Source: Desulfotomaculum nigrificans DSM 574
GTDB lineage: Bacteria > Bacillota > Desulfotomaculia > Desulfotomaculales > Desulfotomaculaceae
Assembly: GCF_000189755.2 (NCBI RefSeq)
Contig: NZ_KI912183.1
Span: forward strand, 2,507,755-2,571,754
Direction: 5' to 3'
Length of the DNA stretch: 64,000 bases
In this document: positions 15,171-60,607 of the stretch, one piece after another
Layout: each line of letters opens with the position of its first letter
How positions within the stretch are numbered: position 1 is the first letter of the stretch
Position numbers and translations under genes: made by a program
Notes under the pieces: model-generated
What the model saw: only the letters and a program-made list of their open reading frames with translations
Databases searched by the model: none
What the model was told of the DNA's origin: nothing

Positions 15171-15258
15171 AGACTAGCGATGAAGTGGAAGGTTGCTCGC
15201 AGTTTGAGGTAATTTTCATGGAGCAGTCCGCTGAATCGGACGAAAGGGAGGGCTTACA

Positions 15259-53238: not shown

Positions 53239-53853
53239 ATGTATTCAATTCAAGAAGCAGCAAAACTACTGGGAGTATCAATATCAACCATGCGGAGGTG
53301 GGAAAAAGAAGGGAAGATTAAACCTATCAGAACACAGGGTGGACATAGGAGATATACCTTAGAGGAATTATCCCAAATAAAGCCCCTGCAATACGATACA
53401 AAACTAACCATAGCCTACTGCCGGGTGTCTTCCTCCGACCAAAAAGAAGATTTACAAAGACAGATAGAAAACGTATCACAGTATTGTACGGCCAAGGGAT
53501 ATTCCTTCAAGGTTATCACTGATATAGGCAGTGGTCTAAACTACAACAAAAAAGGGCTTAAAGAACTACTGCATCTGGTTCAATCAAACAAATTAGAACG
53601 GATTGTTATTAATTTTAAGGATAGGTTAATTCGCTTTGGCTACGAGATAATCGAGCAAATCTGCGAATTTCATGGTGTCACTATCGAGATTATCAATCAT
53701 ACCGAAGATAAAACATATGAGCAAGAATTAGTAGAAGATATATTATCAATAATCACAGTATTTAGCAGTAGATTATATGGCAGCAGAAGCCACAAGCAAA
53801 AAAAGATTCAAAAAGAGGCCGCAAAGTGGTTTAAAGAGAGTGATGCCATTTGA
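53239..53853 (+). CDS. tnpA: IS607-family serine recombinase transposase TnpA
   Basis: A 204-residue protein with a MerR-like winged-helix domain (EAAKLLGVSISTMRRWEKEG, then GGHRRYTLEEL) followed by a resolvase-type catalytic domain. The catalytic serine is Ser64 in AYCRVSSSDQKEDLQRQ. ATG 53239 (MYSIQEAAKL) lies 5 bases after AAGAGGTGG; an ATG at 53221 lies upstream of the expected transcript start. It appears intact. Confidence 0.92.
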   Translation: MYSIQEAAKLLGVSISTMRRWEKEGKIKPIRTQGGHRRYTLEELSQIKPLQYDTKLTIAYCRVSSSDQKEDLQRQIENVSQYCTAKGYSFKVITDIGSGLNYNKKGLKELLHLVQSNKLERIVINFKDRLIRFGYEIIEQICEFHGVTIEIINHTEDKTYEQELVEDILSIITVFSSRLYGSRSHKQKKIQKEAAKWFKESDAI

Positions 53854-55118
53854 TATTCAACCGAAAGATAAGGCTAATCGTAACAGACGAACAAGCAAGA
53901 ATACTAGACTCCCAATCCAAGAAATGCAACTGGCTGTACAACCAGCTTTTAGCTATAGCAAGAGATGACTATATTAACAATGGCAACAGTAAAAAACTCC
54001 TATCCGGCCGGAATTTAAGAAACCAGGTGCCAATACTAAAGCAAGATAACCCATTTCTTAAGACAGTCCATTCCTCACCTCTAAAAAATGTTGCCCTGCG
54101 GTTAAAGGATGCTTACATGCGGTCCTTTAAGCAGGGTAACGGCCTACCCAAATTCCGAGCGTGGAAAAAGAAGTGGTTTTCCCTTTTGTATGACGAACCA
54201 AACAAAGGCTTTAGAATTAACGGCCGAGAACTAAAACTAAGCCTTGGCACCAATAAAGAAGGCAAAAGGCTTTATATCACCCTGGCCCTGGAAGATACCC
54301 CGGCGTCCCCGGAGAGCACAATCAAAAACCTACGCATTACAAAAGATCATAAAGCCTATTATGCAGTCTTTTGTATTGAAAAGCCGGATAAAAAACCGGC
54401 TAAAAGATTAAAATGGATAGCCTTAGACCCAAACCACAAAAACCTGATGGTAGGTATTAACCAAGATGGTGTTAGTTATGAGTTTAAGAACTTGACTCAA
54501 ATTAAATACTGGGACAAAGTAATTGACCGGTTGAAATCGAAAAGGGATGTCTGTCTACGTAAAGCAAAGTTTATTGAAACCTACGAAGGCAGAGGCTATT
54601 GGCAGCCCAGTAAGCGTTGGCTGAGGATAAATAAGGCTTTGGATAAGGCCTATAATGCCCGGCGAGAACAGATTAAGCAGGGATTATATGCAATCGCTAA
54701 CCGGCTGGCCAAAACCTATGATTTAGTTCTTATGGGTGATTATACCCCCACCTTGGAAACAGCTAAATATGATAATATGCACCGTTCGATGCTAAACCGG
54801 ACAGCCATTGCTAAAGCCAGGAAAATTATTGCCTGGGTCATGGAGAAGTCCGGCAAGCATTTTAAAGAGGTAGCAGAGGAAGGAACCACTAAAACCTGTT
54901 CCTTCTGTGGCCATGAAGAAAAGAAGGACCCAACGGTGCGGGTCTTTACCTGCCCTAACTGTCAGACGACACTTAGCAGGGACATAAATAGTGCTATCAA
55001 TATAGCCAAAAAAGAAAATTTATTGCCGTGCCTCGGCTATGTGGAAGACTTAAGTCGTACCACGTACACTGTGGCCTGGGATTACACTAGGTGTGACCTG
55101 ATGGTGCAGATGAATTAA
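53850..55118 (+). CDS. tnpB: TnpB RNA-guided nuclease-type protein with altered RuvC-II site
   Basis: TnpB proteins are RNA-guided DNA nucleases related to Cas12. This 422-residue protein starts at TTG 53850, sharing TTGA with the tnpA stop. RuvC-I Asp193 (WIALDPNHKN), RuvC-III Asp378 (LSRDINSAINIA) and the zinc finger (Cys350, 353, 368, 371) are present. At RuvC-II, where most TnpBs have Glu-Asp, it has Gly296-Asp297 (LVLMGDYTP). Glu343 just before the zinc finger is a candidate replacement. Otherwise intact. Confidence 0.9.
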   Translation: MIFNRKIRLIVTDEQARILDSQSKKCNWLYNQLLAIARDDYINNGNSKKLLSGRNLRNQVPILKQDNPFLKTVHSSPLKNVALRLKDAYMRSFKQGNGLPKFRAWKKKWFSLLYDEPNKGFRINGRELKLSLGTNKEGKRLYITLALEDTPASPESTIKNLRITKDHKAYYAVFCIEKPDKKPAKRLKWIALDPNHKNLMVGINQDGVSYEFKNLTQIKYWDKVIDRLKSKRDVCLRKAKFIETYEGRGYWQPSKRWLRINKALDKAYNARREQIKQGLYAIANRLAKTYDLVLMGDYTPTLETAKYDNMHRSMLNRTAIAKARKIIAWVMEKSGKHFKEVAEEGTTKTCSFCGHEEKKDPTVRVFTCPNCQTTLSRDINSAINIAKKENLLPCLGYVEDLSRTTYTVAWDYTRCDLMVQMN

Positions 55119-58208: not shown

Positions 58209-58237
58209 TTGACAGTAAGCAGTCATATATTTATACT
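58209..58237 (+). promoter_or_regulatory. First ilv promoter (P1)
   Basis: TTGACA (58209-58214), a 17-bp spacer and TATACT (58232-58237) followed by AGT. It leads into the first T-box. Confidence 0.75.
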
Positions 58238-58245
58238 AGTCTTAT

Positions 58246-58541
58246 CATAATTCCAAAACGGAACAGCGTTGAAAGGGACCGGGCATCTGGTACAGGGCCA
58301 CAGAGAGCCGGGTTAGGTGAAAGCCGGTGCTTGATGACAGATTGCCTACATCACCCTGGAGCTGCCTTTACGAAAGCAGGCTGCAAGTAGTCTAGGCCGG
58401 GTTTAAGGGACCCGTTACAAATCCGCACAGTACAGATGCTGTAGGTGTGCAAAAAGTGGCTCTCTGTTGAGCAATCAGGGTGGTACCGCGGAAGGATTAC
58501 CTCTCGTCCCTGGCAAGTTGCCGGGTGCGGGAGGTTTTTTG
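58246..58541 (+). promoter_or_regulatory. T-box leader 1 (specifier AUC, isoleucine)
   Basis: The T-box sequence AGGGTGGTACCGCGG is at 58477-58491, followed by a terminator stem (CCTCTCG..GGGAGG, about 58498-58534) and TTTTTT. In stem I, GGCATCTG (58282-58289) pairs with CAGATTGCC (58338-58346), and the triplet ATC at 58350-58352, followed by A, is the likely specifier for tRNA(Ile). Uncharged tRNA would block the terminator and allow readthrough. Confidence 0.88.
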
Positions 58542-58583
58542 TTGTACCCCTGAAAATTTAACCCGATCGTAACATAGAATTCC

Positions 58584-58612
58584 TTGACATTATTTGGCGA
58601 ACCAACTATACT
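58584..58612 (+). promoter_or_regulatory. Second ilv promoter (P2), between the T-boxes
   Basis: TTGACA (58584-58589), a 17-bp spacer and TATACT (58607-58612), identical in core elements to the first promoter. It lies downstream of the first T-box terminator. Confidence 0.75.
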
Positions 58613-58623
58613 TACTAGTAATT

Positions 58624-58927
58624 TATTTAGTAAACATAAGTAACAGCCATGATCGGGATAACAGTCTGAAACAGGGCCACAGAGAGCCGGGTTGGGTGGA
58701 AGCCGGTGCTGCTGGCAGGCTGGTCTCACCCGGGAGTTGCCCCCGTGAAAGTTTTACACACGAGTAATTGGGGCCGGGTTTCGGTAACCCGTTATCAAAA
58801 AGCACACGGGCAGCTAACTGTCTGTATCTGTGCATGAGTGGCTCTTTAATTAGAGCAATCAGGGTGGTACCGCGGAAGGATTAACCTCTCGTCCCTGGCT
58901 ATTTAAGGCCAGGGACGGGAGGTTTTA
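58624..58927 (+). promoter_or_regulatory. T-box leader 2 (specifier CUC, leucine likely)
   Basis: A second T-box with AGGGTGGTACCGCGG at 58861-58875 and a 15-bp terminator stem (58885-58899 with 58908-58922) plus TTTT. Aligned with leader 1, the specifier position reads CTC (58725-58727) followed by A, pointing to tRNA(Leu). GTC (58723-58725, valine) is the alternative if the loop is shifted. The ilvD Shine-Dalgarno follows directly. Confidence 0.86.
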
Positions 58928-58945
58928 TTTTTAGGAGGTATTAAA

Positions 58946-60607
58946 ATGCGTAGTGACACTATGAAGCAAGGCTTGGAAAGAGCCCCACACCGCAGTTTGT
59001 TCAGAGCCCTGGGCATGGTGGATGAGGAACTTAACCGGCCCATGATCGGGGTTGTTAATTCTTTTAATGAAATTGTGCCAGGCCATATGCACCTGAGGGA
59101 TATTGCCGAGGCGGTAAAAGCAGGGGTAAGAATGGCCGGTGGCACACCGGTGGAATTTCCCGCCATCGCCGTTTGTGACGGCATTGCCATGGGCCATACG
59201 GGCATGAGATATTCCCTGGCCAGCCGTGAATTAATTGCTGATTCCATTGAGACAATGGCCCAGGCCCATCCCTTTGATGGGTTAGTGCTGATTCCCAACT
59301 GTGATAAGGTTGTGCCGGGCATGTTAATGGCTGCCGCCAGGCTCAATATACCGGCAATCGTTGTTAGTGGCGGTCCCATGATGGCCGGTAAGCTGGGCGA
59401 CCGGGATGTGTCCTTCAGCAATATGTATGAGGCCGTAGGGGCGGTGCAGGTGGGCAGAATGACCCGGGAGGAATTGGTCGAACTGGAGGATAATGCTTGC
59501 CCCGGCTGTGGTTCCTGCGCAGGCCTGTTCACTGCCAACAGCATGAACTGTTTAGCCGAGGCACTGGGTATGGCCTTACCGGGTAACGGCACTATTCCGG
59601 CAGTATCCGCTGCCAGGCGTCGGCTGGCCAAGATGGCCGGCATGAGAGCAGTGGCTCTGGTACAGGAAAACCTGCGGCCCAGGGATATCTTAACGATGGA
59701 ATCATTCCGCAACGGTTTTACCGTGGATTTGGCTTTAGGCTGTTCCAGCAACACGGTACTGCACCTGCCGGCCATTGCCCACGAAGTCGGCATAGAACTT
59801 AACCTGGATCTGGTTAATGAATTAAGTAAAGTGACTCCCCATCTTTGTAAACTAAGTCCGGCGGGAGAATATCATATTCAGGACTTGTATGCTGCCGGTG
59901 GTATTCAGGCAGTAATGGCTGAACTATCCAAGAGGAATCTGATTTATCAAAACATTAAAACTGTCAGTGGTTTGACAGTTGGCCAATTATTAGAACAAGC
60001 TAAAGTAAAAAACCGTAATGTAATTCGCAGCGTGGAAGACCCCCACAGTCCGGTGGGCGGGCTGGCCGTTCTGCGGGGCAACCTGGCCCCCGACGGAGCA
60101 GTGGTGAAGCGGGCAGCGGTGGCCCCGGAAATGTTAAAACATACCGGTCCCGCCAGAGTTTTTGATGGCGAGGAAGCGGCCATTGAGGCCATCATGGGTG
60201 GGCAAATTAAGCCTGGCGACGTGGTGGTTATCCGCTACGAGGGTCCCAAAGGCGGCCCGGGTATGCGGGAAATGCTGGCTCCAACCTCGGCGTTGGCCGG
60301 CATGGGCTTGGATAAAGAAGTGGCCCTGCTAACCGATGGTCGTTTCTCCGGAGCTTCCCGGGGCGCTTCCATCGGCCATATTTCACCGGAAGCAGCAGAA
60401 GGTGGCCTCATCGCCTTAATTCAGGACGGTGATATTATTGAGATCGACATTCCCAACTACCGGTTGGAAGTTAAATTGGATCAAGCAGAAATTGACCGGC
60501 GGAGAGCCGGTTGGCAACCGCCGGAACCCAAGGTAACCACAGGCTACCTGGCCCGCTACGCCAAACAAGTATTATCAGCCGGCAAAGGAGCGGTGCTTAA
60601 GCTTTAG
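58946..60607 (+). CDS. ilvD: Dihydroxy-acid dehydratase
   Basis: Iron-sulfur dehydratase of valine, isoleucine and leucine synthesis. The 553-residue protein begins [19 protein letters not shown] and has the cluster-ligand motifs [13 protein letters not shown] and [11 protein letters not shown], and [15 protein letters not shown] 58946 is 7 bases after TTAGGAGGT. First gene of ilvD-ilvB-ilvN-ilvC. Confidence 0.97.

Follow-up and report, generated by a model that had tools for sequence, protein, structure and literature searches.

The ilvD leader of Desulfotomaculum nigrificans DSM 574 is, in our judgement, quite probably a tandem of two autonomous promoter/T-box modules, in which a leucine T-box (T-box 2) would gate all of the output and an isoleucine T-box (T-box 1) only the share that starts at the upstream promoter, P1. 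The leader stands in the last part of the window (the whole 64,000-nt stretch of DNA that was analyzed; all coordinates of the leader refer to it, Table 1) and precedes an operon with the gene order ilvDBNC-ilvB2-leuACDB-cimA (NCBIfam). The genes ilvD, ilvB, ilvN and ilvC lie inside the window, while the second ilvB, leuA, leuC, leuD, leuB and the citramalate synthase gene lie past its end. Judged from this gene content, the output of the operon is leucine and isoleucine/valine precursors, including the citramalate route to isoleucine. As it combines leuABCD for leucine with a citramalate synthase for isoleucine, its predicted products suit a pair of isoleucine and leucine specifiers. The ilvB2 gene that follows ilvC (a second acetolactate synthase large subunit; L140:844-2517) is unaccompanied by a second small subunit.

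Table 1. Features of the ilvD leader and first operon gene (window coordinates)
Feature	Coordinates	Strand	Evidence
Promoter P1, TTGACA-17-TATACT	58209..58237	+	11/12 consensus; hexamers identical in 7/7 tandem genus members
T-box 1 (Ile)	58260..58540	+	RF00230 match 58260-58514, terminator hairpin 58499-58534 and U-run
Specifier AUC (Ile), T-box 1	58350..58352	+	3' end of specifier bulge; Rfam and genus alignments
UGGU T-box bulge of T-box 1	58481..58484	+	sequence, Rfam alignment
Pre-P2 segment TTAACCCGATC, candidate anti-stem-I	58558..58568	+	inverted repeat with 58651-58661, 91%
Promoter P2, TTGACA-17-TATACT, between the T-boxes	58584..58612	+	11/12 consensus; hexamers invariant in 13/13 internal promoters
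T-box 2 (Leu)	58640..58930	+	RF00230 match 58640-58899, terminator hairpin 58884-58922 and U-run
T-box 2 stem I 5' strand GATCGGGATAA	58651..58661	+	partner of 58558-58568
Specifier CUC (Leu), T-box 2	58725..58727	+	Rfam and genus alignments
UGGU T-box bulge of T-box 2	58865..58868	+	sequence, Rfam alignment
ilvD, dihydroxy-acid dehydratase, first operon gene	58946..60607	+	NCBIfam TIGR00110, 808.6 bits

Both units carry the promoter that the first-pass annotation had ascribed to them, with a spacer of 17 nt in each, and P2 is indeed located between the two T-boxes. The leader kilobase holds 6 promoter-like sites (as compared to 1.5 in shuffled sequences), P1 and P2 being the only ones that match 11 of the 12 consensus positions. 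For each unit before ilvD the gap between promoter and T-box is 22-28 nt. The Rfam model RF00230 is covered at full length (model positions 1-219) by both T-boxes, of which T-box 2 scores 95.4 bits, above the gathering score of 93, and T-box 1 87.6 bits (E 1.7e-19), below it. In both units the T-box 3' arm is common to the antiterminator and the terminator hairpin; the latter (-25.3 kcal/mol in T-box 1 and -33.6 kcal/mol in T-box 2) is followed by a U-run. The near identity of the stem I apices, also claimed earlier, is seen in the alignment, and the stem I alignment of the genus gives a consensus fold in which 8 of the 22 pairs show two-sided changes. No plausible gene was found on the coding strand between the end of the upstream ORF (58186) and ilvD. 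The ATG of ilvD is positioned only ~20 nt past the T-box 2 terminator and its U-run, which argues that no further promoter intervenes between T-box 2 and ilvD. With P2 between the units, this layout implies that T-box 2 would gate every transcript. One putative promoter upstream of the units and another between them correspond to an arrangement of one promoter per riboswitch.

A motif just past the -10 element, TATACT-N4-AGTAATT, is common to the ilv T-box promoters of the genus (58232-58250 and 58607-58620 in the window; L019-L026). Related forms recur in the order, and hardly any occurrences in the genus lie outside ilv T-box promoters. The motif may be a start-site signal or an operator; a regulon governed by a protein operator of this kind was rejected, as the genus yielded two extra matches without a T-box, and reversed-pattern controls gave about as many stray matches.

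The specifiers were placed in the Rfam and genus stem I alignments by the TBDB rule (PMC7778990), which counts back from the end of the specifier bulge and takes bases 2-4 as the specifier. The resulting triplets, AUC and CUC, agree with the isoleucine and leucine specifiers proposed from the first reading of the sequence. AUC is unchanged in 7/7 T1 orthologues of the genus, and CUC in all nine T2-like units, where the next base is A or G. The D. nigrificans genome encodes tRNA-Ile(GAU) (detected with the Rfam tRNA model and ARAGORN) as well as a tRNA-Leu(GAG), the 3' end of which is ACCA, as required by the UGGU bulge.

The Ile-then-Leu pair occurs in seven of the nine genomes sampled in the genus, and the remaining two (G004, G007) lack T-box 1 and have just one Leu unit, which carries a promoter of its own, an arrangement suggesting that a P2-type promoter can serve as the sole promoter. 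In all seven tandem members P2 is conserved as a promoter, with the same hexamers and spacing. Combined with six internal promoters from a second family (f3, see below), the hexamers are identical and the 17-nt spacing is invariant in 13 of 13 cases, while the spacer sequence varies (2.0 bits of information per base in the hexamers vs an average of 0.52 in the spacer). In the P2 alignment of the genus, none of 100,000 random draws of 12 columns was as conserved as the hexamers. This conservation shows that the putative promoter is under selection, its activity under a given condition being a separate matter. An invariant promoter between the units also sets the leader apart from tandem T-boxes on a single transcript, the distinction originally drawn in the first-pass annotation.

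To assess how widespread this design is, we scanned the regions upstream of ilvD in about 100 genomes of the class. Most of those that have a T-box there contain a single AUC unit with one promoter ending in TATACT. Tandem leaders were found in family f3, as Ile-Val pairs (G011, G037), Ile-Leu pairs (G066, G067) and an Ile-Val-Leu triple (G027). Every unit of these five leaders has its own TTGACA-TATACT promoter, and the internal ones are conserved in 6/6. A pattern search for a T-box core followed after 68-98 nt by a consensus promoter retrieved at least 10 of 113 class genomes (a lower bound, as an exact consensus is demanded), in two families only and only at ilvD; the reversed-pattern control gave 0. 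With a slightly wider pattern of the same exact-consensus kind, hence again giving minimal counts, matches among 398 genomes of the phylum were confined to the same two families, with 0/383 outside the order. A contrasting case outside the order (L252, G145:C3:29674-30009) has tandem T-boxes, apparently with the same UUC-type specifier, before transporter-like genes, and no promoter between the units, i.e. an ordinary serial tandem. The count of tandems in the phylum is partial, the first tandem-core pattern having had a gap shorter than that of the genus itself. Two relatives (G021, L157; G028, L200) have single T-boxes with a GUC (Val) specifier before their ilvD operons, most relatives having AUC (Ile); these predicted GUC units represent further specifier switching at the ilvD locus. 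In the tandem leaders of both families the Ile unit always comes first. It is the commonest single form in the order, yet in tandems it always occupies the least powerful place, which is a puzzle. The co-existence of pair, triple and single leaders across species offers a ready natural experiment.

A maximum-likelihood tree of 59 T-box units bears out the duplication origin claimed for the pair. The genus contributes 16 units, all of which fall into a single clade (99/99) that splits into a T1 Ile group (95/92) and a Leu group composed of T2 and single units (97/88). The f3 units group apart (81/92), with T1 and T2 intermixed. The AU test rejected a single clade of the Ile units of both families (p 6.8e-5) as well as a single clade of their Leu units (p 0.005), so that a common origin of the pairs of both families is rejected. 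Given these rejections, modules seem to have been duplicated, with a change of specifier, on two or more occasions, or else conversion within each family has overwritten the history. In our reading, a whole unit of promoter, T-box and terminator would have been duplicated and one specifier subsequently changed, yielding two autonomous modules. For the two genomes with a single Leu unit, the tree (97/88) favours a loss of T-box 1; the p value of the alternative (0.08) is not significant. These leaders present modules that appear to have duplicated together with their promoter before changing specifier.

As predicted from the layout, transcripts initiated at P1 would meet the Ile T-box and then the Leu T-box, while those initiated at P2, between the T-boxes, would meet the Leu T-box only. 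Uncharged tRNA-Leu(GAG) would gate all ilvDBNC-ilvB2-leuACDB-cimA transcription, and uncharged tRNA-Ile(GAU) only the extra flow from P1. We infer that P1 and P2 are both active and that the effects of the two T-boxes are multiplicative, so that output = (P1 x rIle + P2) x rLeu. Leucine starvation alone should then open most of the flow, isoleucine starvation alone little of it, and starvation for both should give the highest output. In an illustrative model with equal promoters and a read-through of 0.05 (charged) or 0.8 (uncharged), the two-promoter leader gives outputs of 0.05 in the fed state, 0.09 under Ile starvation, 0.84 under Leu starvation and 1.44 under both, as compared to 0.0025, 0.04, 0.04 and 0.64, respectively, for a single-promoter tandem. 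P2 would thereby convert an AND gate into one dominated by leucine, in which isoleucine could boost the output up to about two-fold. This would be a testable route by which duplicated riboswitches weigh their signals proportionally instead of acting as AND gates. The earlier interpretation is supported both as anatomy and as logic, its functional side resting on the layout. Two points speak against the scheme as it stands: a weak induction of an isoleucine-making operon by isoleucine starvation alone would be physiologically odd, and in this genus RNA reading through from P1 is predicted to tie up the 5' arm of stem I in T-box 2, so that the two gates may not be independent.

A valine-specific T-box 2 (GUC instead of CUC) was a reading for which the first-pass annotation had left room in the second specifier loop. 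CUC is preceded by U or G in the genus, and some relatives (G011, G037, G021, G028) have GUC specifiers. This very variability of the preceding base argues that GUC is not the specifier, as the triplet conserved in all nine units is CUC and the bulge in the window reads GGUCUCA. The position of the conserved triplet rules out valine as the second specifier, and we assign this reading next to no probability. It is somewhat easier to conceive, albeit still improbable, that P2 was carried along in the duplication and is silent, and that all transcripts start at P1 and pass through both T-boxes as an ordinary AND gate. Tandem T-boxes of ilv genes are usually read as serial (PMC12452182), and the G145 leader (L252) demonstrates that a tandem devoid of an internal promoter exists in the phylum. 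On the other hand, a silent P2 is hard to reconcile with the finding that 13/13 internal promoters, from two families, share the hexamers and the 17-nt spacing but differ in spacer sequence, or with the T1-less species, which rely on the own promoter of the Leu unit.

The predicted sequestration of T-box 2 stem I leads to another reading, which we regard as unlikely, though deserving more weight than the previous two. It is compatible with the two-module anatomy and holds that the spacer before P2 acts as an anti-stem-I, so that T-box 2 would sense tRNA-Leu on P2 RNA and be reshaped or disabled on P1 RNA; the gates would then not be independent. The pre-P2 segment is the reverse complement of the 5' strand of T-box 2 stem I with one mismatch, and the two strands occur together only in P1 read-through RNA. 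The first-pass annotation mentioned neither this complementarity nor the recurrence of the design nor the existence of a triple. The arms are complementary in 7/7 tandem members of the genus (10-13 of 13 positions pair), an observation made after the fact on related species that effectively amount to two clades. The duplex energy is -13 to -17.5 kcal/mol for a species' own pair of arms and -7.6 to -10.6 kcal/mol when arms are swapped across the two clades, suggesting that the arms have co-diverged. Relative to dinucleotide shuffles, individual species give p values between 0.002 and 0.09 for the duplex. Pairing is predicted with a probability of 0.97-1.0 in 7/7, as compared to 2-22% of shuffled spacers reaching >=0.9. 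On the other hand, the complementarity is absent from the f3 tandems, and an effect on T2 terminator stability was rejected, as equilibrium folding gave no consistent shift in the T2 terminator vs the antiterminator; such folding models ignore tRNA and tertiary contacts. Moreover, P1 would be futile if T-box 2 were simply disabled in its transcripts. That the choice of promoter decides, via anti-stem-I refolding in P1 RNA, whether T-box 2 can sense tRNA-Leu is a doubtful proposition. If true, it would mean that riboswitch identity is promoter-encoded, the two transcripts of one leader being gated by different versions of T-box 2.

Relative to known systems, the two-module ilvD arrangement is, by its sequence, a variant of the tandem T-box that is conserved and recurrent in two families. 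Double T-boxes have been cited before (PMC9413887), and contiguous T-boxes upstream of ilvB/N/C/D/E genes in Bacillota are treated, in the part of PMC12452182 drawn upon here, as serial elements of one transcript, with both uncharged tRNAs needed. The ilvD leader resembles those tandems in having two complete T-boxes, each with a terminator, before branched-chain amino acid genes; it differs in that the units have their own conserved promoters and differing specifiers, no internal promoter being described in that part of the paper. A likeness in layout exists to the adenine riboswitch/T box-Tyr tandem of C. botulinum, where promoters lie upstream of and between the elements, and the downstream T-box gates both transcripts (PMC9481103). 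That case, with five C. botulinum examples, pairs an adenine riboswitch with a T-box, whereas the ilvD leaders string together two or three promoter/T-box modules, specific for different amino acids of the same pathway, and do so in two families. The T box-Leu/ppGpp tandem likewise joins a Leu T-box to a second sensor before branched-chain amino acid genes, but its second ligand is different, and the excerpts of PMC9481103 and PMC7583486 used here present it as a serial Boolean AND gate and describe no conserved internal promoter. The ilv-leu leader of B. subtilis also places a Leu T-box on an ilv-leu operon (PMC12452182); it has a single T-box plus CodY, TnrA and CcpA, and isoleucine/valine are sensed by CodY, while in the ilvD leader isoleucine would be sensed by a second T-box rather than by the CodY protein. 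According to a 2020 review, it was unknown how tandem T-boxes act (PMC7583486). Our search of the literature, two classical T-box surveys excepted, returned no leader in which two or three T-boxes specific for different amino acids each have their own promoter.

The same genome contains two partially tandem T-boxes (L007:1457-1880, G000:C1:2966451-2966804, plus strand; L008, 1010990-1011365, minus strand). Each has one stem I (UUC-like, Phe specifier) but two antiterminator/terminator modules in a row, the cores of which are ~110 nt apart, and they precede a lipoprotein transporter gene and a DAHP-synthase-like gene. Elsewhere in the window, ribosomal protein leaders were detected at 1715-1865 (L10, 61.5 bits) and 15172-15243 (S10-Clostridia, 35.5 bits), and a 422-aa ORF at 53850-55118 resembles, as judged by eye, a TnpB/OrfB transposon protein in its zinc-finger and RuvC-like motifs.
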